From: Chitinophaga arvensicola
Lineage (GTDB): Bacteria > Bacteroidota > Bacteroidia > Chitinophagales > Chitinophagaceae
DNA length: 64,000 nt
Reading direction: 5' to 3'
NCBI RefSeq assembly: GCF_900110835.1
Contig: NZ_FOJG01000001.1
Span: 3,441,499 to 3,505,498 of the forward strand
This document shows, piece by piece, positions 20,714-41,286 of this stretch; position 1 is the first letter of the stretch; each line of letters starts with the position of its first letter. Position numbers and translations under genes: made by a program. A model generated the notes under the pieces. It was not told the origin of the DNA. It made no database searches and saw only the letters and a program-made list of their open reading frames with translations.

Positions 20714-20733
20714 ATGAGTAAGTTTAAGGAGTT

Positions 20734-22110: not shown

Positions 22111-22159
22111 TTAATACCGAAAAAAATAAAGCCAGGCAAGGCTTTTATTATCGTCGTTG

Positions 22160-22178: not shown

Positions 22179-22189
22179 ATGATGCTGTT

Positions 22190-22212
22190 TAAAAAAAGCC
22201 GTATAGGCTTTT
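22190..22212 (-). terminator. Intrinsic terminator after the tetR gene
   Basis: On the minus strand AAAAGCC-TATAC-GGCTTTT followed by further T residues. It separates tetR from the downstream tolC operon, so the pump has its own promoter. Confidence 0.75.
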
Positions 22213-22255
22213 AGTATAGATGCCGATGGCACATTTCACTTTCACAGATTACGTT

Positions 22256-22873: not shown

Positions 22874-22891
22874 ATTGTATAGTTTACAGTG

Positions 22892-22922
22892 CAAATATAC
22901 TGAACAGTGTTTATTTTCCAAA
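22892..22922 (-). promoter_or_regulatory. tetR promoter with operator between the boxes
   Basis: On the minus strand TTTG (22919-22922), 19 bases of spacing, then TATATTTG (22892-22899): a full consensus promoter. The 19-base operator element (22895-22913), with core ACTGAACAGT at 22899-22908, fills the spacer and overlaps the -7 box, the classic position for autorepression. Confidence 0.8.
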
Positions 22923-22959: not shown

Positions 22960-25197
22960 CTACTCTACGGTTATCTCATCGCAGCACAGCGATGGCTTCT
23001 TACCCGCCACCAGCCGCCAGTCAGGAAGTGTAGCCGGGCATTTGGCCGTTACCCGGATATACCGGGCCGCTGTGCCAGGCACCGCAAAGGAGTAAGGGTT
23101 GATATGCACGGCGTAATCCTCCTCCGGCACCGGGATATCTTTCGTCCCGGCCACCGTGAAGTGGGTACCATCTACAGATGTTTCCACGACCACCTGCGTA
23201 GGATTGAAAATATAATGCCTTGCATCCTGCAGGAAATTCATCTGTACCTGGCGGATGGTTTTACTGCTGCCCATATCAATAGTGGCAATCATGTCTTTAC
23301 CATAGGTAAAGAGCCAGTTGTAGCTGAAATCATTACCGCCGGTAAGTCCGTCGGTGAGCGTACGTTCCTTTTTAGGTGTATACTCCGGTGTATAAGGATT
23401 CACCAGTGTCACCGAAGCACCCTGCGCCAGGCTTTTTATCCATTTGCGGGAGAAGATCGCCTGCCATTCCTGCGCATACGCATCAGGTGATAAGCCCCCC
23501 TCAGAGAGTTCCTGCACGCCCGCCGTTTTACATGCGGCTACAAATTTTTGCACCCGCTGCGGCCACCGTGGATTTACAGTGCCATCGGGTTGCAGGTAAC
23601 CATATTTATCAAATCCGTAAAACCGGGATTGCTGTAATACCACATACTCCAGGAACAAACGTGTACGATAAATCCTTTGCAGGAATACTGTATTATTCGC
23701 GGCAGCCACTTCTGCTTTATCCAGCAACCCGGAATACTGATCAATCAGCACCGGCGACAGGTAATCTTTGGTATTATAGATCGGGTTACCATAAATATCC
23801 AGCACGCTATGGGTGCTTTTTACCGCGTCGCTGAGTGCATCCAGGTATTGCCCCATTACATTGGCGGCAGGCCCGTAATAGCCCGTTAAAAAGTCGTTGT
23901 TGATCTTTTTCAGATCGGCATCCGGCTGCCATAACAAACACGCCTGTACGTAGCTGTTGTATTCGGCCATATCGCCATACGTTTCTCCACTGCCCTGCGA
24001 GAATACGCCTTTCACATGATGTGCGGCAAAATATTGCAGGTTGGGTTGGAGGTTGGTATAATCCGGAAATGGATTCAGGTAATTGGTAAACTGCGTGGTA
24101 TAATCCCAGATGAACAGGTTACCGGTGGTTGCTTCCCAGCCCTGGAGATTTTTCCGGAAACCGGCTGCTGATGCCGTTTGCGCCAGCGGCTCCTGCCGGA
24201 ATGCATCGATGGTACTCAGCATAATGAATACATTGGCGGCCGGTTTCGTTTTCAACGGCGCTTTGGCAGTATAGCCATAGGCCAGCGTGGTAAAATGCTG
24301 TTGGGGGAACTGCCCCGCTACCCGGTTCACAAAACGGATCAGGGATCCCTGTGGTCCCCCTTCTTCTGCATCCGTTTTTTTGCAAAGGTCGCAGGTACAG
24401 GCGCCGCCACCGTCCTGTGGCGCAATAGACCAGTACATCGCATCCGGGTTGGCCGCTATGGCTTTTTTAAACCACGCTACCGTAAGTGCATATACGTTTT
24501 CATTACTCAGACATAATTGGAGAGGCTGCCTTTTGCCATTTACCAGTGAATAGTATTCGGGATGATCTTTGAAATAGGTATCCGGTGGCACCAGTTTGAA
24601 AAACGAATGTCCCCATAACCCCCATAGATCTTCAAACCGGTGAAGTCCATGCCAGGCCAGGTATTCCGCATCCATGGAAGGAGGGTAGTAGGTTTCGCGG
24701 TACTGAAACGCCGGTTCACGTAAATCGGAAATGGGCCCTTTTAAGCGTATATCCTTTGCCGTTGGTACCTGTGCGGGGCCTGCATCGTCCTTACGGCAAC
24801 CCATATACGTCTGCAACGTGTAATACACACCATACACCACGCCCTGCCCGCTGCCGCCACGGATAAACAATTGCTTGTCTTTGACCCCCGCAAAATAACC
24901 TTCACTTTTTATACTCGGAGGTCCTGCGGTATGCGAGGTATTACCGATAAATACCGCCGGTTGTGCTTTATATTGTGATTCGGGTATAACGGGTAGCTTA
25001 GCCCCGGATATCCGCTGAACATAATCCTGGAAAATACCGGCGGCCCTGCTTTCTGCTTTGGTGGCCTGCTCCGGCAACACGATCACATATCCGCTGCGCC
25101 CTTGCTGTACCAGCGTAAGATCCTCCGCCTGTGGTGTACAGGCACTGTATAGTAACGTCGTGATCATTAACAAAAGGCTGCTCATAATTCTGCACAT
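22960..25197 (-). CDS. DUF4838 glycosidase-like lipoprotein with C-terminal discoidin-like domain
   Basis: Predicted surface or periplasmic lipoprotein acting on a polysaccharide. I place the start at ATG 25197, 10 bases after the stop of the TPR gene, because it leads straight into a lipobox (LLYSAC). 745 residues: an N-terminal alpha/beta domain like that preceding many hexosaminidase-type enzymes (about 30-140), a central DUF4838-type barrel (about 150-520, with EAEYLAWHGL-like segment DAEYLAWHGL, a CTCDLC cysteine cluster and YWSIAPQDGGG), and a C-terminal F5/8 type C (discoidin-like) sugar-binding domain (about 620-745). DUF4838 has no firm activity that I know of; by position it may trim or modify the polymer made by this operon. 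It is the last gene of the six-gene unit. Confidence 0.78.
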   Translation of the reverse strand: MCRIMSSLLLMITTLLYSACTPQAEDLTLVQQGRSGYVIVLPEQATKAESRAAGIFQDYVQRISGAKLPVIPESQYKAQPAVFIGNTSHTAGPPSIKSEGYFAGVKDKQLFIRGGSGQGVVYGVYYTLQTYMGCRKDDAGPAQVPTAKDIRLKGPISDLREPAFQYRETYYPPSMDAEYLAWHGLHRFEDLWGLWGHSFFKLVPPDTYFKDHPEYYSLVNGKRQPLQLCLSNENVYALTVAWFKKAIAANPDAMYWSIAPQDGGGACTCDLCKKTDAEEGGPQGSLIRFVNRVAGQFPQQHFTTLAYGYTAKAPLKTKPAANVFIMLSTIDAFRQEPLAQTASAAGFRKNLQGWEATTGNLFIWDYTTQFTNYLNPFPDYTNLQPNLQYFAAHHVKGVFSQGSGETYGDMAEYNSYVQACLLWQPDADLKKINNDFLTGYYGPAANVMGQYLDALSDAVKSTHSVLDIYGNPIYNTKDYLSPVLIDQYSGLLDKAEVAAANNTVFLQRIYRTRLFLEYVVLQQSRFYGFDKYGYLQPDGTVNPRWPQRVQKFVAACKTAGVQELSEGGLSPDAYAQEWQAIFSRKWIKSLAQGASVTLVNPYTPEYTPKKERTLTDGLTGGNDFSYNWLFTYGKDMIATIDMGSSKTIRQVQMNFLQDARHYIFNPTQVVVETSVDGTHFTVAGTKDIPVPEEDYAVHINPYSFAVPGTAARYIRVTAKCPATLPDWRLVAGKKPSLCCDEITVE

Positions 25198-25207
25198 TGT
25201 AATTCCA

Positions 25208-28069
25208 TTAAAATTTCCGCTGAAGCGACAGGTAAATATCGTACTGATTCTGGAACCCGGTATCGCTGATCTTCTGATTGATCCAGGTACCATACAATCC
25301 CAGGGTGGTGCGGTAATGTACCACTTTCTGATAACCCGCGCTGATGCTGCGTGTCAGCAAACCAGAGAGGTTGGGGAAATTCACCAGCCTGCTCTTGTCA
25401 TCCGGAGAAGTACCCAGTCCTGCTACCAGTTGCAGATAGTCCTGCTGTTTGTTCATATAATAACGGGTGGTCAGGTTAAACGATGTATAAAAGCTGGATG
25501 TTTCACTGATGGCAAACCCACGCAGGTTAATCCAGAAATCCCCGAATGGTTTGGCGATGGAAAGTACGCCGGAAATACTGGTGGTACTGTCCACGTTCAG
25601 GTAACGGCCACCCAGTTCCACTTCTATATCTTTCTTAAAGGTCTTGAAAATAGAGTAGGCCGCACGCACCTGGGGGAATACTGATTTGTTGGAAAACGCC
25701 ATCATACCATAGGAGTACAGCTTCGGGTTATGCTTGTAATACATCTCCGCCAGTCCTTGTAACCCGTTGCCATTCTTTCTGCCGGCGTAGTTCAATTGTA
25801 CGGCATAAGAACCGCGCTTAATAAAACGCCGGTATTCTACCGTTGCAATGTTGAACTTGTCGGAAGTATAATCGTAGCTGGAATTATTGAAGTATAGCCC
25901 AAACTGATTCTTCAGTGTTTTGCTCAGCAGGTAATCCCGGTAATCGGTATTGGCGGCTGTTGGCTGCAGCTTCACAATAGAATCTGCTACAAGTGCTGCA
26001 GCGGTAAAGTCCTGCTTGTTCTCCAGGGTAATAGCCCGTTTCATCAGAAAAGCTTCGTTGCCGGGATAGTATTTCATTCCCTGTGCGGTATATACCAGGG
26101 CACTGTCGTACCGTTGTTGTCCGTTCAGGATATTGATGCTGTATAACAACGCCATGGAATCTTTCGGTTGCAGTGCGAGTACCTGGTTAAACATCGCCAG
26201 TGCGCTGTCGGGTTGCTGATTCCGTTGATAGTCGGTGCCTGCCGACATGAGGCTGCTTACATACGCTTGTTTGTATTTGATCGTATAAGGATACCGCGTC
26301 ATCAGGTCGGATGTAATAGCGGCCGACTCGTTATACGCGTGCATTTCCTGTAATACAGACGCTTTTTTCAGTAAAAAATCGCGGTTATCCGGATAATACC
26401 CCAGGGCTGTATTGGCGTAATACAATGCGCTGTCGGGCTTACCGGTAGCGGTTTGCATATTGATCATATAATCCAGCGCTTCGCTGTTGGAAGGCGCGGC
26501 TGCCAATACCAGTGCCAGCTGTTGTTTTGCCAGGTCATATTCATCGGCTTTCATCAGTGCACGGGCAGACGTTAAGCGCATATCTGCGAGGTTGCTGCTG
26601 AACCGTTCATCGGTAGGATACCGCGCTGCCAGTTGTGCCGTGATCACCGCAGCTTCTTCATACCTGCCGGCATCTGCCAGTACGCTGGATTTTTTCAGCA
26701 GAAAAGTGGCATTATCCGGGTAATAGGTCAGTGCCTGATCCAGTGTTTTTAAAGCAGCGGGTGTATTTTTTTGAGAGATGTAGGTATTGGTCAGCAGGTT
26801 TAATACGGAAGAATCACCCGGACTGATCCTGCCGGCAGTTTCAAACGCTGCCAGGGCCAGATCGTATTGCTGTTGTGCCAGGTACTCGCGGCCGGTAGCG
26901 GTTTGCAGCTGTACCAGTCTTTCTTTTAATTCGGGATTGGGCGCGCGCTGGTACAGCGTCATCGCCAGTGCTGCCGCACTGCCGTATTTACGGTCGCCTT
27001 CCAGTACATCCATTTTCAGACCGAGTAAGCGGGTATCGTTAGGAGTGGCTTTCAGGCCACGGTTAATCCATGCCAGTGCTTCTGCATAAGCGCCCCTGGC
27101 CATGCTGTAGCCAATCAGTTTGTCCAGCGCTTCGCGGTTGCCGGGATTTTTTTCCAGCACACCCTGATACAACGTATAGGGGTCCATGTTAGCATAGTAG
27201 GTAGCGGCTTCCATGCGCAGCGATGTTTCCAGGGTACGTGCCTTTGCATCACCCGGGAACCGGCGCAACACTTCCTGTAAAGTACTCAGCGCTTCTACAT
27301 AGGCGTGCATTTCCTGCAGGATGCCGAGCTTGCGCATCAACAGATCGTAGCTGCCAGGGTGAGCGAGCAACTCATCATTTACCTGTTCCAGGGCGGATTG
27401 ATAGTTGCCTCCTTTCAGGGCCACACCCAGACTTGCTTCCCGGGCCTCCTGGTTGCGTGGTTCTACCAGTAAAACACGGTCGTAGCTCTGACGCGCCATG
27501 CCACTGTTGCCCAGCTGCTGATAATATTTGCCGCTCAATAAGTAGTGCTCTACATAGGCATTACGTACGGTGGTGTCTTCCGGGTATTTATTCAATACCG
27601 TTTCGGCCAGTTCGTTTCCGCGATATACTTTATGTTGCATATCCAGGATGCCAAGCTTCTTCAGCATAAATTCCCGGCTACCCGGAAATTGGCTCAGGGC
27701 TTCATCTGCATAGCATTCTGCTTCCGCATATTTGCCGGTAGTCAGTTCCACGTTGATCGCATAATAATACGCATCCCGGTATTGCGGATTTTTCGCAAGT
27801 ACTTCCTTTACATATTTTCTGGAGAGATCATATTGTTTGGTGAGCATATAAAGACGTGCCAGTAACAGCTGCTGATCGATGAAATCAGGCTGTGCTTTCA
27901 GCGCCTGTTGCGACAGGGCAATGGCTTTGTCGTAATGCTGTTGTTTCGTTTCCTGAAGGGCCTGTTCATACAGGGCTTCTGCATTATTCTTCTGTTTAAA
28001 GATCTGTGCCTGCGTTTGCATCGCCAAACACACCAATATACCCGTTAACAGATGTTTTAATACAGCCAT
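25208..28069 (-). CDS. TPR-repeat protein with C-terminal YaiO-type outer-membrane beta-barrel
   Basis: Probable outer-membrane export channel for a polysaccharide. The frame is open to 28186, but ATG 28069 (MAVLKHLLTG) starts a signal peptide ending TQAQ and lies 19 bases after the upstream synthase gene. 953 residues: about 20 tandem tetratricopeptide-like helical repeats (residues about 25-700; recurring pattern ALxxxPxDxxxLxxLxxLYxxxxxY), then a beta-barrel of about 240 residues (FGLYFNNSSYDYTSD to IYLSLQRKF, with terminal Phe) of the YaiO family. A TPR region joined to a barrel is the architecture of PgaA, the exporter of poly-N-acetylglucosamine. It lies between the two synthase genes and the glycosidase-like gene. 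Confidence 0.82.
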   Translation of the reverse strand: MAVLKHLLTGILVCLAMQTQAQIFKQKNNAEALYEQALQETKQQHYDKAIALSQQALKAQPDFIDQQLLLARLYMLTKQYDLSRKYVKEVLAKNPQYRDAYYYAINVELTTGKYAEAECYADEALSQFPGSREFMLKKLGILDMQHKVYRGNELAETVLNKYPEDTTVRNAYVEHYLLSGKYYQQLGNSGMARQSYDRVLLVEPRNQEAREASLGVALKGGNYQSALEQVNDELLAHPGSYDLLMRKLGILQEMHAYVEALSTLQEVLRRFPGDAKARTLETSLRMEAATYYANMDPYTLYQGVLEKNPGNREALDKLIGYSMARGAYAEALAWINRGLKATPNDTRLLGLKMDVLEGDRKYGSAAALAMTLYQRAPNPELKERLVQLQTATGREYLAQQQYDLALAAFETAGRISPGDSSVLNLLTNTYISQKNTPAALKTLDQALTYYPDNATFLLKKSSVLADAGRYEEAAVITAQLAARYPTDERFSSNLADMRLTSARALMKADEYDLAKQQLALVLAAAPSNSEALDYMINMQTATGKPDSALYYANTALGYYPDNRDFLLKKASVLQEMHAYNESAAITSDLMTRYPYTIKYKQAYVSSLMSAGTDYQRNQQPDSALAMFNQVLALQPKDSMALLYSINILNGQQRYDSALVYTAQGMKYYPGNEAFLMKRAITLENKQDFTAAALVADSIVKLQPTAANTDYRDYLLSKTLKNQFGLYFNNSSYDYTSDKFNIATVEYRRFIKRGSYAVQLNYAGRKNGNGLQGLAEMYYKHNPKLYSYGMMAFSNKSVFPQVRAAYSIFKTFKKDIEVELGGRYLNVDSTTSISGVLSIAKPFGDFWINLRGFAISETSSFYTSFNLTTRYYMNKQQDYLQLVAGLGTSPDDKSRLVNFPNLSGLLTRSISAGYQKVVHYRTTLGLYGTWINQKISDTGFQNQYDIYLSLQRKF

Positions 28070-28088
28070 TTGCTTTTCTTTTATAAGT

Positions 28089-29567
28089 TTATTTCTTTTT
28101 ACCAAAACCTTGTCGTTGCATATTTCCCCAGGATGTTTTCTTTCCGGTGAGGAAGAACCAGTAACCCCGCAACGCAAAAAATACAATCAGTGGATGGTAG
28201 ATCAGTGGTTCAAAAAATGCCATGAGCGATAAGGCAATCACCTCCCGCCAGGTTTTGTAATAACCGTAGGTAAGCTGGTCCCAGCAGATCGCCAGTGTGG
28301 TGATCATCACGGAAAACAGGTATACAAACAGCAGTAATATCAGGGCGTAAGGCCAGTTTACCTGGTCGGTCACCGCCAGGTAGATGTAATAGATGATACC
28401 CGCGAATTCAATGATAGGCGCCAGGAACTCAAAAAAGAGGTTATAAGGCAACACCACCAGTCCCAGTTTTTTATACCGGGGATTGAAAATGATTTTCTTG
28501 TGCAACGTCATGATCTCTGCCAGCCCGCGCCCCCAGCGGGTACGCTGACGGCTGAATACTTTCATATTCGGTGGGCCTTCCGTCCAGCACTGTGTGGTAG
28601 GAATATAACGTACCGCATATTTCAGTTTGTTATCGATCATAAAAGCGCACATACGCGTTACAATATCCATGTCTTCCGCAAAGGAGCTATGGTCATATCC
28701 ACCCGCCTTGATGGCTACTTCTTTATCGAATAAACCTAATCCGCCGGATACATTGGGTACGCTGTTCATCACGCTCCAACCCATTTTACCAAGTACATAT
28801 GCCCGGATATATTCCATTTCCTGGAAGCGGGGCAGTATTTTTTCGGGGGGGCGTACCCGTATGATCACTCCTTCATCGATTTCGGTGGAGTTGGCGATAC
28901 GCAGTGTAGCACCGGTGGCAATTACCTGCCGGCTATCTTCCACTACATGAACATATCCGCACTGGGGGCAGGGTTCACCGATCTCTTTTGTTTTTTTATG
29001 CTCTTCATCCATGAAGGGCTTGATCATGCGGAGCAAGGTATCTTTTTCAATGATACAATCCACATCCGTATTCAGGAAATAATCAAAAGAAGCGGCATTG
29101 ATACCGGCATTGGCGGCATCAGCCTTACTTTTACCATTCACTTTATCTACCACCAGCAGTTTATCATAAGCGGTGTTGGTAGATTTATATAATTGTCTGA
29201 CTGGTTGCGTCACAATACGCTCATTGTAGGCAAAATCTACCGGTACCAGTTCAAATTCACGGATCAGCTTTTCCAGCGTATCGTCTGTACTCCCATCATT
29301 CACAATGATCACCTCAAAACGTGTATAGTTCAGCGTTAGTAGGGAACGCACGTTCATAATAATGGTCACGCTTTCATTATAGGCAGGCGCTATCACGGAA
29401 ATGCCCGGTGTAAGCGGGGAATCCAGGAGATGGTCGTAGTTGGTGAAGCTGTTTTTTTTACGGAACATAATGATACCACGGAAAGACATGTAAGCCAGCA
29501 AAGCATACATGAACAGCAGCACAATACCGTAAATAAATACGCCCCCTTCAAAAATTGTTCTGATCAT
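28089..29567 (-). CDS. Processive GT2 polysaccharide synthase with CPxCG insert
   Basis: Inner-membrane glycosyltransferase family 2 enzyme of the synthase type (as in PgaC, chitin and hyaluronan synthases), expected to polymerise a nucleotide sugar and push the chain out. 492 residues: one N-terminal helix (about 10-33), catalytic domain with NDGSTDD (90-96), TDVD (167-170), Glu-Asp (298-299) and QRTRW (341-345), the last being the QxxRW hallmark of processive enzymes, then about four helices. Residues about 189-214 form an extra segment containing CPQCG (Cys200, Cys203), absent from the paralogue encoded just upstream. It is 15 bases from that paralogue gene and 19 from the TPR/barrel gene. 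Sugar specificity is not readable. Confidence 0.86.
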   Translation of the reverse strand: MIRTIFEGGVFIYGIVLLFMYALLAYMSFRGIIMFRKKNSFTNYDHLLDSPLTPGISVIAPAYNESVTIIMNVRSLLTLNYTRFEVIIVNDGSTDDTLEKLIREFELVPVDFAYNERIVTQPVRQLYKSTNTAYDKLLVVDKVNGKSKADAANAGINAASFDYFLNTDVDCIIEKDTLLRMIKPFMDEEHKKTKEIGEPCPQCGYVHVVEDSRQVIATGATLRIANSTEIDEGVIIRVRPPEKILPRFQEMEYIRAYVLGKMGWSVMNSVPNVSGGLGLFDKEVAIKAGGYDHSSFAEDMDIVTRMCAFMIDNKLKYAVRYIPTTQCWTEGPPNMKVFSRQRTRWGRGLAEIMTLHKKIIFNPRYKKLGLVVLPYNLFFEFLAPIIEFAGIIYYIYLAVTDQVNWPYALILLLFVYLFSVMITTLAICWDQLTYGYYKTWREVIALSLMAFFEPLIYHPLIVFFALRGYWFFLTGKKTSWGNMQRQGFGKKK

Positions 29568-29582
29568 AGCACGCTGTTTTCT

Positions 29583-31016
29583 TTATTTTTTCTTCTTTCC
29601 AAAACCTTGTCGTTGCATATTTCCCCAGGTACTCTTCTTGCCGGTCAGGAAATAGTAGTATCCCCGCAGCGAGAAAAACACGATGAGGGGGTGATACAAC
29701 AGAAATTCCATAAAAGGAGTGAGACACAGATACGCCACTTCCCACCACTTTTTATAATACCGGAACGATAGCTGATCCCATAATATCGCAATGGTGGTGA
29801 TCATCACCGCATACGTATATACGAAAAGCAACAGCATCGATGCGTAGGGCCAGTTCACCTGACCGGTAACCGCGAGGTATATATAAATAAGGATACCGCT
29901 GAACTCCACCAATGGCGCCAGCAGTTCAAAAAAGAAGTTAAACGGAAATACGATCATACCCATCTTCCCGTAACGGGGATTGAGGAACATGCTGAAATGC
30001 GCATACATCAGCTGGGCAAGCCCTCTGGCCCAGCGGGTACGTTGGCGGCTGAAGATTTTCACTGTGGAAGGACCTTCTGTCCAGCACAAGGTTCTTGGTA
30101 TATAACGCACCGCGTAGGAAATTTCGTTGTCATGCGCGTACCGGCACATCCTGGTCAGCAGTTCCATATCTTCCCCGAAGGAGCTGTGGTCATATCCGCC
30201 GCAACGCGTGGCTACTTCTGTGTCGAAGAGGCCCAGGCCGCCGGATACATTGGGTACACAGTTGATGTAGCTCCAGCCCATTTTGCCCAATACAAAGGAG
30301 CGGATGTACTCCACTTCCTGGAAGCGGGGGAGGAGCTGTCGGGGCGGCCGCATACGGATCAATACGCCTTCGTCGAAGTCGGAGGAATTGGCGATACGCA
30401 ACGTGGCGCCAACAGCGATCACGCGCTTCTTCTCTTCCTGCATCACCGGTAAAATCAGCTCCAGCAAAGTATTTTTATGAAGGATACAATCCACATCGGT
30501 ACACACGAAATAGTCGAACGTAGCTACGTTCATGCCTGCATTCACCGCATCTGCCTTACTTTTTCCATTCACTTTATCAATCACCATCAGGGCAGAGTAA
30601 GCAGGGTCGGTGGATTTATAGATCTTTCTGACTGGCTGCGTGAGGATCCTGGCGTTATAGGCAAAGTCCACCGCCACCATTTTAAATTCTTCCACCAGCT
30701 GTTCCATGGTATTATCCGTACTTCCATCATTGATAATGATGATTTCATAGCGCGGATAGTTCAGGGTGAGCAGCGATCTTACGTTGGAAATAATGGTCAG
30801 GCCTTCATTAAAGGCAGGCGCCAGGATAGTGATGCCGGGCGCCATCGGTGAACTGGCCAGCGTTTCCAGCTGATGTTGGGTATTCTTGCGGGTATAATAC
30901 CGGATCGCGAGCATCGACAATAAAGCGAGCAGGGCATACACCAGTAGTAAAATCAACCCATATACGAAAAGCGTATTTTCATAGGCCTTGCCCAGCACTG
31001 AAATAATGCCCTCCAT
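29583..31016 (-). CDS. Processive GT2 polysaccharide synthase (paralogue)
   Basis: Second membrane synthase of the same family. The frame is open from 31043, but the junction with the HEAT-repeat gene reads TAATG, so I use ATG 31016 with a one-base overlap, giving 477 residues. Motifs: NDGST (96-100), TDVD (173-176), Glu-Asp (282-283) and QRTRW (325-329), with one N-terminal helix and about four C-terminal ones. It is clearly the sister of the next protein over nearly the whole length, including the C-terminus TWGNMQRQGFGKKKK, but lacks the cysteine insert. Two full synthases in tandem suggest a heterodimer, a two-sugar polymer, or two products. No active-site loss is visible in either. Confidence 0.86.
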   Translation of the reverse strand: MEGIISVLGKAYENTLFVYGLILLLVYALLALLSMLAIRYYTRKNTQHQLETLASSPMAPGITILAPAFNEGLTIISNVRSLLTLNYPRYEIIIINDGSTDNTMEQLVEEFKMVAVDFAYNARILTQPVRKIYKSTDPAYSALMVIDKVNGKSKADAVNAGMNVATFDYFVCTDVDCILHKNTLLELILPVMQEEKKRVIAVGATLRIANSSDFDEGVLIRMRPPRQLLPRFQEVEYIRSFVLGKMGWSYINCVPNVSGGLGLFDTEVATRCGGYDHSSFGEDMELLTRMCRYAHDNEISYAVRYIPRTLCWTEGPSTVKIFSRQRTRWARGLAQLMYAHFSMFLNPRYGKMGMIVFPFNFFFELLAPLVEFSGILIYIYLAVTGQVNWPYASMLLLFVYTYAVMITTIAILWDQLSFRYYKKWWEVAYLCLTPFMEFLLYHPLIVFFSLRGYYYFLTGKKSTWGNMQRQGFGKKKK

Positions 31017-32170
31017 TAGTACTTGATTAAAGGGTTCATACAATGCTTCAGGATCAGCAGACTTTCCCGGTCGGCTGTATCCAGCAGTTCCTGTAATACC
31101 TGGCTGGCTACCCAGTCGTTTTTAACGAGCGATTTGGCTGCCGCCTTACGCAGGTCGAAATTGGTGGAGTGCAGGAATTCCTGTTTCAGGAAATCTACCT
31201 GGCGTCCGCTGCTGATGCGGCCGATGGCCTTCAGGATCTCAATCTGGCATTGCAGCGGCTGACTGGTGAACATGGATACCAGTCTGTCTTCCACATCCGG
31301 TACCCGGAGTTTGCCCAGGCAGTTGATGGCATCTGCACGCAGATAGTGATCTTTCGTATCCAGCAGTTTGATCACTGCCGGTACGGCCGGTAACTGGTTG
31401 TAATGCACAATCAGTTTCAGGCAGAAGGATACCACGCTCTTGTTGGAAGAGTAGGTGATCCAGCGGGCGAAATTGGGTATCGAAATATCTTCTGTAGTGG
31501 TAATGATCCGGAATAATTCCACCTGGTCCCACATCAGCAGTGGATCGGTTACTACATCGAAAAATTTGAAGGGTTCGTTTTTACTGAGTTTGATGTAGGC
31601 ATGCCTGGCAGCAGCCCTCAACTCACGGTTACGGCTATTCGTTAATGGCAGGATGGTTACATCGGCCACCGGGATGTCCATGTCGATGAACTCAGTCAGG
31701 GCCCGCACTTTCCGCGCCCATTTCGACGATTTCATCTGTTTCATGGTGTCCTTGCTCAGTTCCAGTTGTATATAAAGACTACGGAGCAACTGACCCGCAT
31801 TCCCCCGCACGTTCCGGCGGAAGTGAATGATACGGTTGGTGGTAGCCTGCCTGGCCCATTTCTTATGTAAGGGTAATTCCTGGAATCCGTCGAGGTTCAG
31901 TTGTATCCTGTCGGCCGGCGTACCAGCAGCTACTTCCGGATTAGCCAGGATTTCATCAATGATCAGGTTATCTATTTTAGGGAGCAGGTAATCCAGTCGT
32001 TTTTTACGCTGGTGTCCACGGAAACGGCTTCTCAAAATAGAAAAATACGCCAGGAGCGTAATGGAAATGGCTATTATGATAAAAATCATCGCCAGCCTTA
32101 TGGCCAGCGGCGCCTCCCGGAAGGTGCTGAAAACAGGATCCAGGAAGGCAGGAGTTGGAATATCGAACAT
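31016..32170 (-). CDS. Membrane-anchored HEAT-repeat protein
   Basis: 384 residues. One N-terminal membrane helix (LAIRLAMIFIIIAISITLLAYF, about 22-44) is followed by a basic segment and an all-helical body with HEAT-like repeats in the C-terminal half (for example VPAVIKLLDTKDHYLRADAINCLGKL, then DVEDRLVSMF... and FLKQEFLHSTNFDLRKAAAKSLVKN). HEAT arrays are protein-binding scaffolds, so it may hold the synthases or receive the receiver protein encoded just upstream. I know no enzymatic role. The start is 3 bases after the receiver gene and the stop overlaps the synthase start by one base, so translation of all three should be coupled. Confidence 0.78.
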   Translation of the reverse strand: MFDIPTPAFLDPVFSTFREAPLAIRLAMIFIIIAISITLLAYFSILRSRFRGHQRKKRLDYLLPKIDNLIIDEILANPEVAAGTPADRIQLNLDGFQELPLHKKWARQATTNRIIHFRRNVRGNAGQLLRSLYIQLELSKDTMKQMKSSKWARKVRALTEFIDMDIPVADVTILPLTNSRNRELRAAARHAYIKLSKNEPFKFFDVVTDPLLMWDQVELFRIITTTEDISIPNFARWITYSSNKSVVSFCLKLIVHYNQLPAVPAVIKLLDTKDHYLRADAINCLGKLRVPDVEDRLVSMFTSQPLQCQIEILKAIGRISSGRQVDFLKQEFLHSTNFDLRKAAAKSLVKNDWVASQVLQELLDTADRESLLILKHCMNPLIKY

Positions 32171-32173
32171 CAG

Positions 32174-32545
32174 CTATTTATTCTTCATTAACAATCTTTT
32201 TACCCTGATCAGTAATTCGGCAGGTATGATCGGTTTTTTCAGAAAATCGTCCGCACCCAGCTTGAAGCCTTCCATGATCATATCTTCATTGCCTGCATTG
32301 GAAACAATAATCACCGGAATCGGCCTTGGCTGACTTTTTACCCTGCTCAGAATTTCAAATCCATTGGCATAAGGCATCATGATGTCCGTAATGATCAGAT
32401 CATAGCCATAGTTGGTACTCTCCAGTTTTTCAAATGCTTCCTTTCCGTTTGATACATGGTCCAGCTCATACTCGGAGGTGGGGAGAATTCTTGCCACTAT
32501 TTTAGGCATGATCTCATCATCTTCTACTAACAAAATTTTACTCAT
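32174..32545 (-). CDS. Single-domain response regulator (receiver only)
   Basis: CheY-like phosphoreceiver without an output domain. The frame is open to 32572, but ATG 32545 (MSKILLVEDDE) gives the standard receiver start; 123 residues. Visible are the acidic pair in VEDDE, the phosphoacceptor Asp in LIITDIMMP (about 54), the switch Ser in IIVSNAG and the Lys in FLKKP. As first gene of the polysaccharide operon, 3 bases before the HEAT-repeat gene, it probably acts by protein contact on the synthesis machinery. The likely phosphodonors are the kinases of the divergent operon. Confidence 0.88.
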   Translation of the reverse strand: MSKILLVEDDEIMPKIVARILPTSEYELDHVSNGKEAFEKLESTNYGYDLIITDIMMPYANGFEILSRVKSQPRPIPVIIVSNAGNEDMIMEGFKLGADDFLKKPIIPAELLIRVKRLLMKNK

Positions 32546-32813
32546 CGTGGCTGAATTTAGTCTGCTAAACAAATCGCAATATTTAATTGTTTAGCAGGAT
32601 GTTATTTTATTGTGAATCTTAATAGGTACGCTTCATAATGCGCAGGATTTGCGCATTATACAGGTATATACTTGAAAAATAAATGAATAGTTTTCCATGG
32701 ATAAAAAAAACGGATAAGGCATTGCTACAAAAATAGATCTGTTATTGTGCACAAAGATATTGAATATGAAGGCATTTAGGTACTTTTATACCTGATTAAG
32801 GAATTAATATTAT
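32546..32813. other. Divergent control region of the polysaccharide and signalling operons
   Basis: 268 bases. CAAAGATA at 32752-32759 reads TATCTTTG on the minus strand and could be the -7 box of the polysaccharide operon, giving a leader of about 200 bases. Inside that leader is the perfect inverted repeat at 32635-32659. A shorter repeat AGGTA-N6-TACCT lies at about 32778-32793. No clear plus-strand promoter for the hybrid kinase was found. Confidence 0.5.
32635..32659. repeat. Perfect 9-base inverted repeat in the polysaccharide operon leader
   Basis: ATAATGCGC, 7-base loop, GCGCATTAT. There is no T-run after it, so it is more likely an operator or an mRNA leader hairpin than a terminator. 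It is 90 bases from the receiver start codon. Confidence 0.6.
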
Positions 32814-35800
32814 ATGAGAATTTCATTAATTAACAGACTGTACCTCGGCTTTTCCGTTGTAGTATTACTTGTCATCCTCGGCGCTTTTCTAACCTGGCAA
32901 ACTTTTTCTTCGCAAACAGAAGAAGCCGGATGGGTACAGCACACTTACCGCGTATTAAACAATTCTGAAAGGATCCAACGCTTACTTTTCGATATGGAGG
33001 CCTCCCGCAGAGGCTATCGCAGCACGTTAAACGAAAGTTTCCTGCATCCCTATGAACTCGCGCTGCCTAAAGTGTCGCCCGCTGTCAATGACCTGCGCAC
33101 CATGGTGATCGATAATCCTACACAGGTAAAAAATGTGGATTCCCTGGAAGATAGCATCAATTCCCTGCTCAGCTTCTGGAATGAACTGGATCATATTATC
33201 GGGCAGCAACGTTTTGAGCAGAACGGCGCTATTACAGAAAAGGAAACCGCGCTGATGGATAAGGTCCGTGCTAAAATAGGACTGGTAAATACAGAAGAAC
33301 GCCGCCTGCTGGGCATACGGGAAGAATTTAAAAGTAATTCCTTTACGAAGGCGGTGAGAACGCTTCTGATCAATAACGCCTTCATTTTATTGGTAGGATT
33401 CATACTGATGAGGATCACCTACGCCGAATTCAGACGCCGCCTCAGAGCACAACATGCCCTGAACGCCAAACTGGCGGAAGTGGTGGAACTCAATACCACC
33501 GCCAATGAAAAAAACTGGTTGCTCACAGGAGTAAACGATATGAACGACAGCCTGCAGGGCGTGAATAACCGCGATGAACTGATGCGTAAATGCCTGCATA
33601 CCCTTACTAACTTCGCAGATTTTGCCGCCGGCGCATTTTATTGCTACGACGAAACCCACGATGATCTTCGTTTGTACGCGGCCGTTAGCATGCCTGCCGG
33701 GATTCCCAACGCCATTTCCCTCCATGAAGGCTTTACAGGCACCGCAGTGGCCGGAAAAGAAATCCTGGTTATCCGGGACGTGCCTGCCACCTACTGGCAA
33801 TTGCACTCCGCCAGCGGTAGTATGCAGCCGGGCTCCCTGGTACTGATCCCGCTGTGGATTGAAACGGAACTACTGGGCGTCATTGAACTGGCCTCCTTCC
33901 GCGATGTGACGGATACCCAGCTCCGGTTGCTGGAAGTACTGTCGAAAGATATATCCGTTGCCGTTAATGCCGCCAACGCCCGTGAAAAAATACTGCGACT
34001 GCTGCAACAGGTGCAGGAACAAAAGGAAATTCTTATCAGTCAGCAGGAAGAACTGCGGCAGTCAAACGAAGAACTGAGCCGGCAATCGGAAATACTCCAG
34101 GCTTCTGAGGAAGAACTGAAAGTACAGGAAGAAGAACTCCGCCAGGTAAATGCGGAAATCACTGAAAAGAATAAAGACCTGGAAACCGCCAGGGGCGCAC
34201 TTTCTATAAAAGCCACCGAACTGGAGGCCAGCAGCCGCTACAAATCTGAATTCCTCGCCAATATGTCGCACGAACTGAGAACACCACTCAACAGTGTACT
34301 CATCCTGGCAAAAATGCTGCAGGAAAATAAAGATAAAAACCTCACGGATAAACAGATGGAATACGCCGGTATCATCTATAAATCCGGCTCCGATCTGCTC
34401 CACCTGATCAATGATGTACTGGATCTCTCTAAAATAGAAGCCGGTAAAGTGGAAATGAATTTTGAAGAGGTATCCGTACGGGGCATTATCGATGATATTT
34501 CCGATCTTTTTGGCGTAGTATCACAGGAAAAAAATATTCAGTTTATTAAAAACGTGGCGCCCGAAGTACCGGCAGAAATCCATACCGATAAACTACGGCT
34601 GGAACAGGTGATCCGTAACCTGCTCTCCAACTCCTTTAAATTTACGCCTCCCGGTGGCGTGATCAGTCTTTCCTGGTATATGAACGCACCAGATGTACTC
34701 AGCATCAGCGTTACAGACACCGGACCCGGAATTCCGGAAGATAAGCAAAGCCTTATCTTCAATGCTTTTCACCAGGGCGACGGCGCCACCAACCGTAAAT
34801 ATGGCGGTACCGGCCTCGGACTGAGCATCAGCCGGGAACTGATGTTGCTGCTGAATGGAGAAATCCGCCTCGATAGCAGCACCGCCTCCGGTAGTACTTT
34901 TACAATCCAGCTGCCGGTGAGCGCGAATGCCACGCCACTGAGCATTCCGGTAACACCGGCTGCTGCACCCATGAACATGCCGTTGATCCAGCCCGCAATG
35001 GTGGTGAACGACGACCGCGATAATCTTTCGAAGCAGGACAAACTGATCCTGATTATTGAAGACGATATTTATTTTGCCGATATCCTGCGCGACTTCGCCC
35101 GTAACAAAGGATTTAAAACCATCGTGGCACACAACGGGCAGGAAGGACTGGCCTACGCCCGCAAATTCCTGCCGGTAGCCATTATCCTGGATATGAACCT
35201 CCCGGTAATCGACGGCAGCAGCATCCTCAAAATCCTGAAAAGCAGCGAGGAACTGAGCAAAATCCTGGTACATGTGGTTACCGCCGCCGATATACAGGGC
35301 ATCCGGGAAGATAACATCCATGGCTATACGAGAAAGCCGCTGGAATTACAGGATCTGGAAGAAGTGTTCACCAGTATCAGCACCCAGATCCAGGCCGGAC
35401 TGAAAAAAGTATTGCTTGTGTCTGTAGGACCATTGAGCGCCAATGCCACACTGGAAGCCATGAGCGAAGAGCGCAACCTCGGCACCCATTATGATATTGC
35501 CGCTGGTGTTCCGGAAGCACGGCAACTACTGGGTGGCAAAAAGTATGATGCCGTGATCGTGGAAATAGGAGAAGAACTGGAAGCCGGCATCACCCAGCTG
35601 GCAGCACTCACCACCATCCCCGAAGCCGGCAGCACACCCCTGATCGTATACCTCGACCAGGATATTACGGTGCAGGAAGAACAACAGCTGAAGAAATATG
35701 CTTCTGCTATTGTACGTAATTCCTCCCATGCTTCCGACCGGCTTATGGATGAACTGGAACTGTTCCTTTATAAACTACAGAAGAAAGTAGAAGTACCCGA

Positions 35801-36200
35801 TATGACTGCTTCCTGGACGGAAGAGCAGTTGTCCGGTAAAACGGTATTGCTGGCAGATGATGACATGCGGAATGTATTTTCGATCAGCGCACTGCTGGAA
35901 GAACAGGGTATTTCCGTACTCACTGCCGCCGACGGGAAGGAGGCGCTGGCGGTACTGGATCAGCAGCCGTCGATAGACCTGGTGCTGATGGACATCATGA
36001 TGCCCGAAATGGACGGCTACGAAGCTATGAAAAGAATACGTGCCGATGGCCGCTTCCAGCAACTGCCGGTAATTGCCCTCACCGCAAAGGCGATGGCAGG
36101 CGACCGGCAAAAATGTATGGAAGCCGGTGCATCCGATTATATTGCAAAACCCGTAGATAATATTAAATTGTTATCATTGTTAAGGGTATGGTTGTCTTAA
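32814..36200 (+). CDS. Hybrid sensor histidine kinase: CHASE3-GAF-HisKA-HATPase with three receiver domains
   Basis: Membrane sensor kinase of 1128 residues. Order of parts: helix (about 7-28), CHASE3-type extracytoplasmic sensor (about 30-180), helix (about 185-202), GAF domain (about 245-390), coiled coil rich in Glu (about 395-475), HisKA with phosphoacceptor His486 in NMSHELRTPLN, ATPase domain with NLLSNSFKF, DTGPGIP and GGTGLGLS, receiver 1 with Asp793 in IILDMNLP, receiver 2 (about 865-985) in which the usual Asp is replaced (VIVEIGEE), and receiver 3 with Asp1060 in VLMDIMMP. It should sense a signal across the membrane and inside the cell and pass phosphate through several receivers. 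It begins the plus-strand operon that continues with CheR, CheB and a second kinase. Confidence 0.9.
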   Translation: MRISLINRLYLGFSVVVLLVILGAFLTWQTFSSQTEEAGWVQHTYRVLNNSERIQRLLFDMEASRRGYRSTLNESFLHPYELALPKVSPAVNDLRTMVIDNPTQVKNVDSLEDSINSLLSFWNELDHIIGQQRFEQNGAITEKETALMDKVRAKIGLVNTEERRLLGIREEFKSNSFTKAVRTLLINNAFILLVGFILMRITYAEFRRRLRAQHALNAKLAEVVELNTTANEKNWLLTGVNDMNDSLQGVNNRDELMRKCLHTLTNFADFAAGAFYCYDETHDDLRLYAAVSMPAGIPNAISLHEGFTGTAVAGKEILVIRDVPATYWQLHSASGSMQPGSLVLIPLWIETELLGVIELASFRDVTDTQLRLLEVLSKDISVAVNAANAREKILRLLQQVQEQKEILISQQEELRQSNEELSRQSEILQASEEELKVQEEELRQVNAEITEKNKDLETARGALSIKATELEASSRYKSEFLANMSHELRTPLNSVLILAKMLQENKDKNLTDKQMEYAGIIYKSGSDLLHLINDVLDLSKIEAGKVEMNFEEVSVRGIIDDISDLFGVVSQEKNIQFIKNVAPEVPAEIHTDKLRLEQVIRNLLSNSFKFTPPGGVISLSWYMNAPDVLSISVTDTGPGIPEDKQSLIFNAFHQGDGATNRKYGGTGLGLSISRELMLLLNGEIRLDSSTASGSTFTIQLPVSANATPLSIPVTPAAAPMNMPLIQPAMVVNDDRDNLSKQDKLILIIEDDIYFADILRDFARNKGFKTIVAHNGQEGLAYARKFLPVAIILDMNLPVIDGSSILKILKSSEELSKILVHVVTAADIQGIREDNIHGYTRKPLELQDLEEVFTSISTQIQAGLKKVLLVSVGPLSANATLEAMSEERNLGTHYDIAAGVPEARQLLGGKKYDAVIVEIGEELEAGITQLAALTTIPEAGSTPLIVYLDQDITVQEEQQLKKYASAIVRNSSHASDRLMDELELFLYKLQKKVEVPDMTASWTEEQLSGKTVLLADDDMRNVFSISALLEEQGISVLTAADGKEALAVLDQQPSIDLVLMDIMMPEMDGYEAMKRIRADGRFQQLPVIALTAKAMAGDRQKCMEAGASDYIAKPVDNIKLLSLLRVWLS

Positions 36201-36207
36201 TAGAATT

Positions 36208-37029
36208 ATGGTAGAAGAAATCAGCAACGCGGATTTTACAGACCTGGTGAAAATCATTCAGCAGCGATATGGCTATGACTTTACAGACTACGCTTCCGCC
36301 TCGCTGAAACGTCGCTTCAGCAGGTTTACCGGCTACACTGGCATCGATAATATCTTTGACCTGAAACACCGGTTGCTGAATGAAACAGATTTTTTCCGGG
36401 AGATGATCCGGTACATTACGGTGAATGTTACCGAAATGTTCCGGGATCCTTCGTTCTATAAAGTGCTGCGGGAGCAGGTAATACCACGGCTGGCATCTTA
36501 CCCCAGTATTAAGATATGGCATGCCGGCTGTGCTACCGGGGAAGAAGTATATTCTATGGCTATTTTACTGCAGGAAGCCGGTCTGCTGGACCGTTGCCGT
36601 ATCTATGCCACCGATCTCAATGAAGCCAACCTGGAGAAAGCAGAAAGCGGTATCATTGCGTTGAAGGATATGAAAGACTATACGCAAAACTATATGCAGT
36701 CCGGGGGGATTCATGATTTTTCCAATTATTACACCGCCCGTTACGACAACGCCATTATTCACCCGTCTTTATTAAGGAACGTTATTTTCTTTCAGCACAA
36801 CCTGGTCACCGACCAGGTATTCAATGAATTTCAACTCATCTGTTGCCGGAATGTTTTTATATATTTTAACAGAACACTCCAGGAACGGGTGGTGAAGTTG
36901 TTTTATGAAAGCTTAACTTCGTTAGGGTACCTGGCATTGGGTATTAAAGAGTCACTGTTATATAATGAAGAAAGAATAAAATTTGAACCTGTGAATCTGG
37001 CGAATAAAATATTCAGACGTAAAGTATAA
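36208..37029 (+). CDS. CheR-type protein-glutamate methyltransferase
   Basis: SAM-dependent methyltransferase that in chemotaxis systems methylates Glu residues of receptors. 273 residues: helical N-terminal domain (1-75, with RYGYDFTDYASASLKRR), then the methyltransferase fold with the SAM motif HAGCATGEEVYS (about 112-123) and the typical FQLICCRNVFIYF segment. There is no TPR extension. It lies 7 bases after the hybrid kinase gene and directly before CheB; no chemoreceptor, CheA or CheW is present in the window, so the methylated target may be the coiled-coil region of the hybrid kinase (inference). Confidence 0.9.
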   Translation: MVEEISNADFTDLVKIIQQRYGYDFTDYASASLKRRFSRFTGYTGIDNIFDLKHRLLNETDFFREMIRYITVNVTEMFRDPSFYKVLREQVIPRLASYPSIKIWHAGCATGEEVYSMAILLQEAGLLDRCRIYATDLNEANLEKAESGIIALKDMKDYTQNYMQSGGIHDFSNYYTARYDNAIIHPSLLRNVIFFQHNLVTDQVFNEFQLICCRNVFIYFNRTLQERVVKLFYESLTSLGYLALGIKESLLYNEERIKFEPVNLANKIFRRKV

Positions 37030-37031
37030 AT

Positions 37032-37613
37032 TTGACAGTCCCCCATTCATACCGTATCCTCGTTATTGGTGGCTCCGCCGGCAGTATGCCGGTATTATCC
37101 GCATTGATGGAAGCCTGGCCGGTTCCTTTCCACATACCGGTGGTACTGGTAATCCATCGTTTAAAAAACGTGAAGAGCGAACTGGGTGTGCTGTTATCAG
37201 ACCATATACAGATCACAGAACCGGAAGATAAAGAGCAACTGCTGCCAGGACATATCTACCTGGCACCGCAAAATTATCACCTGTTGATCGAAGCCGATGG
37301 CACCATTTCCCTGGACTATTCAGAACTGATCAACTTCAGCCGGCCATCGATAGACCTGAGCTTTGAAAGCGCTGCTACCGCTTTTGGATCCGCTGTCATC
37401 GGTATTTTACTGAGCGGCGCCAACAAAGACGGCGCAGAAGGATTATGCCGCATAGCCGCTGCCGGTGGCACAGCAATTGTACAGGATCCGGCTACGGCAG
37501 CTTTTAACACCATGCCGCAAGCCGCCTTAGATCAATGCGCAGACATACAATCCATGACGCCGGATCAGATGATCCGTTACTTAAGAAATATAAGCACCGC
37601 AAATAAACGTTGA
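37032..37613 (+). CDS. CheB-type protein-glutamate methylesterase, no receiver domain
   Basis: Removes the methyl groups that CheR adds. 193 residues consisting only of the catalytic domain, with triad Ser15 (GGSAGS), His42 (VIHR) and Asp133 (NKDGAE) in place. The receiver normally fused to chemotaxis CheB is absent, so control must come from outside. The start is TTG at 37032, two bases after the CheR stop; no ATG or GTG lies before the essential GGSAGS motif in this frame, and the first residues are needed for the first strand. Three bases separate its stop from the next kinase gene. Confidence 0.88.
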   Translation: MTVPHSYRILVIGGSAGSMPVLSALMEAWPVPFHIPVVLVIHRLKNVKSELGVLLSDHIQITEPEDKEQLLPGHIYLAPQNYHLLIEADGTISLDYSELINFSRPSIDLSFESAATAFGSAVIGILLSGANKDGAEGLCRIAAAGGTAIVQDPATAAFNTMPQAALDQCADIQSMTPDQMIRYLRNISTANKR

Positions 37614-37616
37614 GAA

Positions 37617-38723
37617 ATGAAGCAACACAAACCGAAAACATTTACTATACTGTTGGTGGATGACAAAGCGGAAAACCTCGTATCGCTGGAACATATGCTG
37701 GAAGGCGATCACCGCGTTATCCTGAAAGCCACTTCCGGTAATGAAGCATTGAAAACCGTATTACGTCACGATGATATTGGGCTCATCATGCTGGATGTGC
37801 AGATGCCTGAAATGGATGGCTATGAAGTAGCCAGGCTCTTACAGACAAATCCTAAAACAAAAGATATCTCCATCATCTTTGTAACTGCCATCAACAAAGA
37901 GGAACAATATGTAATGCGCGGTTTTGAACAGGGCGCCGTAGATTACCTGTCCAAGCCACTGGATGTAAATGTGACCCGGGCCAAGGTGACCGTGTTTGAA
38001 AAGTTGTACCGCTATCAACATCAGCTGAAAGAGGCGATGATCGAGAAAGAGAAAGTAAACAAACAGCTGGAAAGGTTTATGTACGTGGTGGCACATGACC
38101 TGAAATCCCCGCTGTCCGGCGCTATTGGCCTCCTGGCACTGATCAATGAAGACGAACGGATTCAGAGCGCTCCCGATCTGAAAGAATATATGAAAATTGT
38201 ATTGGGCGCCACCAATCACCTCACAGAAATGATTACCTCCATGCTGGATTATACCCGCCAGAGCGACATGGAACAAACGATAGAAGAAGTTAATGTACAT
38301 GAACTGGTAACACAGTTATCGAAGCTGCTGTTTCCTCCTGCCAATATTCATATCGAAACAGGGGGGACCCTGCCGGTACTGGAAACCAACAAGCTGAAAC
38401 TGCAACAGGTGTTTCAGAACCTCATCTCCAATGCCATCAAATACAATGATAAGAAGGATGGTCTTATCACCATCGGGGGCACCGACAAGGGCGAATTCTA
38501 TGAATTCTATGTAAAAGATAATGGCCCCGGTGTAGCCAAACGCGATACCGACCGCATTTTCAAGCTGTTTGAACGGCTCGATAATGAAGGGAAAGGAGAA
38601 GGCTCCGGTATAGGCCTGAATATCTTTAAGCTACTGGTAGAAGAACAGGGAGGTAAGGTATGGGTAGAATCTTTACCCGGAGAAGGAAGTACATTTTATT
38701 TCCTCTGGCGGCAACGCTATTGA
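37617..38723 (+). CDS. Receiver-histidine kinase (REC-HisKA-HATPase), soluble
   Basis: Cytoplasmic kinase whose activity is set by its own N-terminal receiver. 368 residues: receiver (about 8-125, Asp60 in IMLDVQMP, Lys in LSKPL), short coiled coil (about 128-150), HisKA with His160 in VVAHDLKSP, and ATPase domain with NLISNAIKY, DNGPGVA and GSGIGLN. It is the last gene of the signalling operon and a likely step between the hybrid kinase and the single-domain receiver of the divergent polysaccharide operon. The last 7 bases overlap the convergent GAF/PAS gene. Confidence 0.9.
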   Translation: MKQHKPKTFTILLVDDKAENLVSLEHMLEGDHRVILKATSGNEALKTVLRHDDIGLIMLDVQMPEMDGYEVARLLQTNPKTKDISIIFVTAINKEEQYVMRGFEQGAVDYLSKPLDVNVTRAKVTVFEKLYRYQHQLKEAMIEKEKVNKQLERFMYVVAHDLKSPLSGAIGLLALINEDERIQSAPDLKEYMKIVLGATNHLTEMITSMLDYTRQSDMEQTIEEVNVHELVTQLSKLLFPPANIHIETGGTLPVLETNKLKLQQVFQNLISNAIKYNDKKDGLITIGGTDKGEFYEFYVKDNGPGVAKRDTDRIFKLFERLDNEGKGEGSGIGLNIFKLLVEEQGGKVWVESLPGEGSTFYFLWRQRY

Positions 38724-41230: not shown

Positions 41231-41286
41231 TTTTTTTTCTACTCATCTGGTACTACCACTTAGCACGGGTGTCTTTAATAATACAA

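Follow-up and report, generated by a model that had tools for sequence, protein, structure and literature searches.

A receiver, HEAT-repeat and glycosyltransferase cassette of Chitinophaga arvensicola as a putative polysaccharide secretion system of Bacteroidota

What does an operon make that lines up a phosphorylation receiver, a membrane HEAT-repeat protein, two family 2 glycosyltransferases (GT2), a TPR protein of the YaiO family and a DUF4838 lipoprotein, and how would such a set be switched on? The question is raised by a stretch of 64,000 nucleotides from the 8.3 Mb genome of Chitinophaga arvensicola (contig NZ_FOJG01000001.1, positions 3,441,499 to 3,505,498), called here the window, whose minus strand carries a tightly packed operon of this composition at 22960-32545. 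The favoured answer, to which a probability of about 0.6 is given, is a synthase-dependent exopolysaccharide secretion system of Bacteroidota whose activity would be set along a path from kinase to receiver to HEAT protein to GT2. That the cassette carries out polysaccharide synthesis and export is rated more probable still, on the grounds of its anatomy and of what is known about the families involved.

Composition of the operon and the predicted secretion machine

The six genes of the operon, in order of transcription, and the four genes of the operon divergent from it are the following (aa, amino acids):
32174..32545, minus strand: stand-alone CheY-like receiver, 123 aa, without output domain (PF00072 only)
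31016..32170, minus strand: membrane HEAT-repeat protein, 384 aa, with one N-terminal hydrophobic segment (PF13646, 43.7 bits, cut-off 27.7)
29583..31016, minus strand: GT2 synthase 1, PgaC-like, 477 aa (PF13641/PF13632; TIGR03937 below cut-off; conserved motifs)
28089..29567, minus strand: GT2 synthase 2, PgaC-like, 492 aa (Pfam and NCBIfam-type matches, conserved motifs)
25208..28069, minus strand: exported TPR solenoid with predicted C-terminal YaiO-family barrel, 953 aa (PF19413, TIGR04390, AlphaFold)
22960..25197, minus strand: DUF4838 lipoprotein with an F5/8C (CBM32-like) C-terminus, 745 aa (PF16126, PF00754, AlphaFold)
32814..36200, plus strand: divergent hybrid kinase, CHASE3-GAF-HisKA-HATPase with receivers (Pfam)
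36208..37029, plus strand: CheR methyltransferase (PF01739, PF03705)
37032..37613, plus strand: CheB methylesterase domain without receiver (PF01339 only)
37617..38723, plus strand: receiver-histidine kinase (family matches)

All ten genes named in a preliminary description of the locus were recovered with their domains by open reading frames (ORFs) and family scans, including the plus-strand operon of hybrid kinase, CheR, CheB and receiver-kinase. ATG starts were chosen by us from homologue lengths and signal-peptide-like starts; with these starts the spacing from the receiver to the DUF4838 gene is a gap of 3 bases, a one-base overlap and gaps of 15, 19 and 10 bases, in agreement with the gaps of 3 to 19 bases or one-base overlaps given earlier.

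Each GT2 has four hydrophobic segments and keeps the D, DxD, ED and Q(Q/R)xxRW motifs that serve processive synthases; D91, D168/D170, E298/D299 and Q341, R342, R344, W345 are invariant in 16 aligned rows. Motifs and membrane segments are those of the inner-membrane GT2 by which the general class of synthase-dependent exopolysaccharide systems is recognized. The kinship with PgaC that had been proposed was borne out by profile comparison: the GT2 family aligned with E. coli PgaC at an hhalign probability of 99.7 % (280 columns) and with E. coli YaiP at 98.6 % (30 % over 121 aa), and the PgaC model TIGR03937 gave 123.2 bits with synthase 1 and 114.2 bits with synthase 2, its cut-off being 422.3. 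When the GT2, HEAT and DUF4838 proteins were compared with solved chains by phmmer, domain-level matches only were obtained.

The gene following the synthases encodes a protein with a signal-peptide-like start, by our reading of the sequence, which matches TPR families and the YaiO family (PF19413, 131.6 bits vs a cut-off of 23.9; TIGR04390, 90.5 bits vs 32) and so joins a TPR scaffold to an outer-membrane barrel domain, the general form of exporter in this class. The AlphaFold model, built with an alignment of the window protein and 35 of 57 long sequences, predicts 39 helices followed by 14 strands between residues 721 and 952 (predicted local distance difference test, pLDDT, 88; predicted template modelling score, pTM, 0.47, a low value that makes the placement of the solenoid relative to the barrel unsure). 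A barrel is thus predicted as had been expected, which excludes a TPR protein lacking one. The 50 rows shown by Foldseek for this model contained helical-repeat proteins only; the evidence for the barrel is therefore the model together with the match to the family, and not a fold match. The aligned region between the window YaiO family and PgaA (hhalign 39.6 %) comprised the TPR part only.

In the machine that these parts suggest, one or two inner-membrane GT2s would build a polymer from a nucleotide-sugar and extrude it into the periplasm. The TPR solenoid would lead the chain to the outer membrane and its 14-strand YaiO barrel, and the DUF4838 lipoprotein, or in other lineages an LtaS/MdoB-like phosphotransferase, would trim or decorate it.

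The locus had been described as a PGA-like secretion machine. The likeness stands for the synthesis-export anatomy, the predicted barrel and the kinship with PgaC, but membership in the PGA system (poly-N-acetylglucosamine, PNAG; PgaABCD) was rejected: equivalog scores are far below cut-offs (for PgaA, TIGR03939, 62.8 bits vs 366.65), neither the PgaB deacetylase nor PgaD is among the families of the six operon genes, and no genes for cyclic diguanylate (c-di-GMP) signalling were found. PgaABCD of E. coli K-12 shares with the cassette a PgaC-like GT2 with QxxRW, a TPR protein with outer-membrane barrel and a periplasmic glycan-active enzyme; the cassette differs in its YaiO-family barrel with 14 predicted strands, its HEAT protein and receiver, and its tandem GT2. 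The yaiO-yaiX-yaiP-yaiS cluster of E. coli K-12 likewise has a YaiO-family barrel near a GT2. However, YaiP is by the hhalign values above a more distant GT2 than PgaC, E. coli YaiO (257 aa) is too short for a TPR array, no HEAT protein or receiver is annotated there, and the place of DUF4838 is taken by the deacetylase YaiS, a type not found among the six operon genes. In cellulose secretion, BcsC acts as the TPR-barrel exporter and BcsZ as the glycosidase. The Bcs system with BcsG, which makes phosphoethanolamine (pEtN)-cellulose (PMC8461298), thus resembles the cassette in synthase, exporter, glycosidase and alkaline-phosphatase-superfamily phosphotransferase, the last being found here in sister cassettes; it differs in synthase subfamily and in PilZ, which is missing here, and the phosphotransferase of the sister cassettes scores best with LtaS/MdoB models (below cut-off) and is often fused to GT2. 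The cassette would work like Pga, Nfr and Bcs but falls outside the definition of each, and is regarded as a variant of synthase-dependent polysaccharide secretion. No description of a receiver-HEAT-GT2-YaiO cassette was found among the titles and abstract openings listed for the literature searched, whose coverage left out most subscription papers, so that one may exist. In that literature DUF4838 occurs in a single paper, and 40 of the 41 papers that mention YaiO seem from their titles to deal mostly with E. coli genomics or detection.

Conservation of the cassette across the phylum

With the HEAT protein as query (E 1e-5, this genome being counted in both draws), homologues were found in 71 of 79 Chitinophaga genomes and in 48 of 395 genomes drawn across the phylum. 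All 54 HEAT matches that the phylum draw gave in other genomes were taken (53 loci, numbered L089-L141) and their neighbours labelled by blastp. Immediately downstream of 53 of the 54 HEAT genes is a GT2 gene in the same orientation; the sole exception (L141) is the weakest match of the draw. A receiver is present within 9 kb on either strand in 48 (in 28 of those immediately upstream and in the same orientation), and a YaiO protein in 42 by a strict rule, with a weaker YaiO label in L124, L135, L136 and L137. Since GT2, receiver and YaiO recur at these frequencies, the gene order is more than chance. Matches longer than 250 aa to a PF00884 probe were found near 26 of the 54 HEAT genes and a DUF4838 protein near 12. 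A compact variant was also seen (L124, L129, L132, L135, L136, L137, L140), with the order receiver-YaiO-HEAT-GT2, the barrel gene lying between the receiver and a shorter HEAT gene (273-277 aa).

Within the genus, 20 of the 88 matches listed were examined, chosen for diversity. The order receiver-HEAT-GT2 was present in 18 of these loci, followed by YaiO on the same strand in 16 of the 18; of the exceptions, L087 had its HEAT frame lost to the overlap filter and L088 contains a HEAT protein without cassette. Another set was obtained with a GT2 profile against named genomes, from which the best 80 of at least 567 matches gave 79 loci; 14 were dropped for short contigs and 65 had enough flank. 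Four records are common to this set and the phylum draw (L091/L191, L093/L216, L114/L207, L118/L213), so that the two are not wholly independent. All 65 of these best-match loci have HEAT next to GT, 62 have GT next to YaiO and 54 have YaiO next to DUF4838; in 42 a receiver immediately precedes HEAT or immediately follows YaiO/DUF4838. Among the genera that carry the cassette are Chitinophaga, Olivibacter, Pedobacter, Sphingobacterium, Flavobacterium, Polaribacter, Chryseobacterium, Dysgonomonas, Alistipes and Bacteroides. The co-occurrence is kept across the phylum, and an order peculiar to this strain is excluded.

The part of the cassette that varies least is the set of receiver, HEAT protein and GT2. 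The HEAT protein, previously regarded as a scaffold different from that of PGA, is indeed a component of the cassette, but its place in this stable part makes it more than a replacement scaffold.

A tandem GT2 was flagged in 23 of the 65 best-match loci; in L188 it is a split single gene, which leaves 22. In the loci examined, such pairs were confined to Chitinophagaceae, Olivibacter and some bins that were unclassified or carried odd titles. In a GT2 tree of 62 rows the first copies of the pairs form one clade (support 100/97) and the second copies (4 changes) are interspersed with the enzymes of single-copy loci. This makes the second synthase a duplication that the tandem-pair lineage has retained, outside the core. 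Copy 2 of the window (28089-29567, minus strand) contains, at about residues 190-212, an insertion bearing a CPQC motif, common to the second copies of L069 and L077 and missing from copy 1 and from the single copies shown in the alignment.

Three loci titled Beijerinckiaceae, Limnohabitans and Gastranaerophilales (L153, L192 and L198, respectively) contain cassette genes and are possibly misbinned metagenome contigs; the GT2s of L153 and L192 group among Bacteroidota rows of the GT2 tree. In Chitinophaga pinensis YS-16 (L146) the YaiO and DUF4838 genes are each split in two, perhaps by sequencing error or decay.

Control of the synthase

The receiver keeps E8/D9/D10, D54 (in ITDIMMP), S82 and K104, which we take to be its functional positions. 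Of 47 cassette receivers collected from other genera, 32 were built into a profile, which ranked the window receiver first among the 85 receiver matches (E 1e-10) of its own genome (141.6 bits, the next 112.4). On sequence grounds this identifies it as the orthologous partner of the cassette. The gap between receiver and HEAT gene has a median of 10 bases and is at most 60 bases in 77 of 84 distinct adjacent pairs. The HEAT protein has one hydrophobic segment (17-49) with basic residues behind it, so that by the positive-inside rule the repeats are probably cytosolic. A quick HEAT tree was made of 116 rows (113 distinct); the genus loci L069-L088 and the window were not part of it, and 17 loci were omitted because their flanks were short or their context poor. 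On this tree the presence of a receiver (87 yes, 29 no) required 4 changes vs a shuffled mean of 26.3, a clustering that is inflated by related copies, with long branches in the tree.

The synthases of Pga, cellulose and Nfr systems are activated by c-di-GMP (PMC8461298, PMC8669469). In this genome 0 matches to GGDEF and 0 to PilZ were obtained, so that c-di-GMP control is unlikely here; GGDEF was likewise found in 0 of 79 Chitinophaga genomes. The phylum draw has GGDEF in 203 of 395 genomes vs 3 of 47 other HEAT-positive genomes. Only 2 of the 203, however, belong to the same class as C. arvensicola, and three of the five HEAT-positive genomes outside the class have GGDEF, one of them (G377) with a HEAT gene lacking an adjacent GT2. 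The contrast follows class, and absence of c-di-GMP as a trait of the cassette itself was rejected.

Since c-di-GMP genes were not found, activity may be set by phosphorylation. A histidine kinase would phosphorylate the operon receiver. Having no output domain, the receiver would act by touching another protein, in the simplest case the HEAT protein anchored in the membrane, which in turn would switch the adjacent GT2. This gating is proposed because of the gene spacing, the co-inheritance, a receiver without output domain and a genome in which no c-di-GMP genes were found; that the receiver works on the synthase post-translationally, by way of HEAT, is given an even chance. The most specific form of the proposal is tentative, falling somewhat short of even odds: a phosphorylated receiver would directly gate the synthase by way of a HEAT adaptor in the membrane, an arrangement widespread among those Bacteroidota classes that mostly have no c-di-GMP genes. 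It would be the two-component counterpart of Pga, Bcs and Nfr, whose synthases c-di-GMP activates, and its tailoring modules, glycosidase or phosphotransferase, would be interchangeable. Should the receiver-HEAT-GT2 core prove to be such a switch, it would show how synthases can be activated without c-di-GMP and would provide a defined gene set across the phylum.

The same secretion system could instead hold the receiver as a relay between kinases and a distant transcription factor, with HEAT as a constitutive assembly scaffold for the synthase. Single receivers can be relay steps, this one has no output domain, the neighbouring hybrid kinase and receiver-kinase hold further receivers, and 29 of the 116 HEAT rows have no receiver. 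A plain relay, however, needs neither the position of the receiver in a structural operon closely beside HEAT nor its tracking of HEAT lineages, and this explanation is considered unlikely, at about one chance in four.

Several points weigh against control of a secreted polysaccharide through receiver and HEAT. Gene content, motifs and the co-inheritance of receiver, HEAT and GT2 can be read from the sequence, and barrel and glycosidase fold are structure predictions, but polymer export, receiver-HEAT contact and gating are inferred. The receiver-less rows, which have none on the same strand within 9 kb, mostly belong to the DUF4838 type (Bacteroides, Alistipes, Polaribacter and others; DUF4838-only loci are 25 of the 29), so that the core can exist without receiver. 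No fusion of receiver with HEAT or GT2 was seen among the 152 labelled loci in which it was looked for, many carriers lack the divergent operon, and the lack of GGDEF, going with class and not with cassette, gives no independent support. As to export, the single E. coli YaiO sequence aligns weakly to the window family (hhalign probability 4 %, E 0.0099), both proteins nevertheless matching the YaiO Pfam family.

The preliminary description had also credited the locus with built-in phospho-signalling. This holds for the receiver, which is conserved inside the operon and is the constant signalling part where signalling is present, but the divergent kinase/CheRB operon is a local accessory. Its kinase, CheR and CheB genes were seen only in some of the loci with tandem GT2, a receiver-kinase being labelled in 14 and CheR in 11 of the 23 flagged. 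Hybrid kinase and receiver-kinase are candidate phosphodonors. Between its GAF and HisKA domains the hybrid kinase (32814-36200) has a region rich in Glu and Gln that resembles a coiled coil; with CheR and a CheB lacking a receiver encoded next to it, the kinase might itself be the methylated protein.

Glycan-active partners and neighbouring genes

The DUF4838 protein has a lipobox-like LYSAC (by our reading) and matches PF16126 (303 bits) and PF00754 (30.8 bits), with PF02838 at 24.2 bits just under its cut-off of 26.1. Its AlphaFold model (pLDDT 94, pTM 0.90; window protein and 50 of 59 sequences) shows a GH20b-like domain, a (beta/alpha)8-type barrel, a helical region and the F5/8C C-terminus. 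In Foldseek the best match was 6q63 (BT0459, named beta-hexosaminidase; E 8.1e-25), followed by GH84, GH115, GH138 and GH67 enzymes; TM-scores of 0.29-0.48 indicate kinship at superfamily and not family level. At that level the protein is predicted by the model to have the glycosidase fold of GH20/84/67/115-like enzymes. All 51 aligned rows have H197, D262 and D365. In the model D262 comes after strand 255-257 and D365 at the end of strand 361-366, presumably the places where related enzymes have their catalytic acids, and both may be catalytic. The cassette would give a functional setting to a domain named for unknown function, as well as to the GT2-phosphotransferase fusions described below. 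In nine receiver-less loci (L176, L184, L185, L191, L196, L197, L200, L202, L220) a lipoprotein-like gene of 160-190 aa follows DUF4838, in L220 a DUF1573 (PF07610).

DUF4838 had been proposed as the glycan-active partner. A glycosidase fold is predicted, but DUF4838 is one of two exchangeable partners. The other is a membrane phosphotransferase of LtaS/MdoB-like type, which elsewhere takes the place of DUF4838 or stands beside it and in many cases forms one protein with GT2 (14 rows, 13 distinct). The partner label (DUF4838, phosphotransferase, both or neither) requires 16 changes on the HEAT tree vs a shuffled mean of 48.2, a clustering inflated by related copies in the same way. Proteins of about 670-810 aa beside or fused to GT2 matched PF00884 in 9 of 9 scanned, with five N-terminal hydrophobic segments in four of the five examined and four in the other. 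In 31 aligned rows (30 distinct) the presumed nucleophile column has Thr in 26 and Ser in 3, and the presumed metal columns have E, D and H in 28, 27 and 30, these columns being assigned by analogy with LtaS/EptA. The nearest NCBIfam names, all below cut-off, are lipoteichoic acid synthase and phosphoglycerol transferase. By analogy with BcsG, which decorates cellulose with pEtN (PMC8461298), a phosphoglycerol or phosphoethanolamine transferase decorating the polymer is suggested; the GT2-phosphotransferase fusion family would predict a phosphate-decorated polymer. Proteins of 373-391 aa, without Pfam family at E 0.001, adjoin YaiO or HEAT in phosphotransferase-type loci (L078:4732-5892, L107:13413-14588, L100:7122-8243, L100:8224-9375).

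LtaS/MdoB-like enzymes act on membrane-bound glycans in known systems, and their presence in many loci would fit a cell-bound or lipid-linked glycan built by the GT2s, with the YaiO protein displaying rather than releasing it. A precedent is NfrB-NfrA-YbcH, the phage N4 receptor glycan system, which also combines a regulated GT2 synthase, a TPR/outer-membrane pore protein and an accessory protein, although NfrB has an MshEN c-di-GMP domain where the control module here is receiver and HEAT (PMC8669469). No Pfam match to MshEN was found in either window GT2 at E 0.1. The synthases, however, resemble PgaC, whose product is secreted; the gene data fit bound and released polymer alike, and a displayed glycan is given a low probability, roughly one in five.

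A polysaccharide utilization locus, in which DUF4838 would be a catabolic enzyme of glycan uptake and degradation, was rejected as very improbable. The glycosidase fold with F5/8C domain and the extracytoplasmic function (ECF) sigma factor, FecR and TonB-dependent receptor (presumably SusC-like) at 40682-45987 would suit it. This set, however, lies outside the secretion operon, beyond two minus-strand genes and the divergent operon; the operon holds two synthases with intact motifs, and elsewhere phosphotransferases replace DUF4838 while synthase and barrel stay. Exopolysaccharide secretion is thus preferred.

Rfam gave 0 matches in the window. On the downstream side of DUF4838, 16527-22921 (minus strand) holds ORFs read by eye as RND pump, membrane-fusion-like and TolC-like proteins, with a TetR regulator (22256-22921, minus strand, PF00440) immediately after the DUF4838 gene, a neighbour kept in several Chitinophaga loci. 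On the other side, at 40682-47392 (plus strand), the ECF sigma factor, FecR and TonB-dependent receptor are followed by an ORF of 460 aa, and together they resemble a glycan-uptake locus of the SusC type, distinct from the secretion operon nearby.

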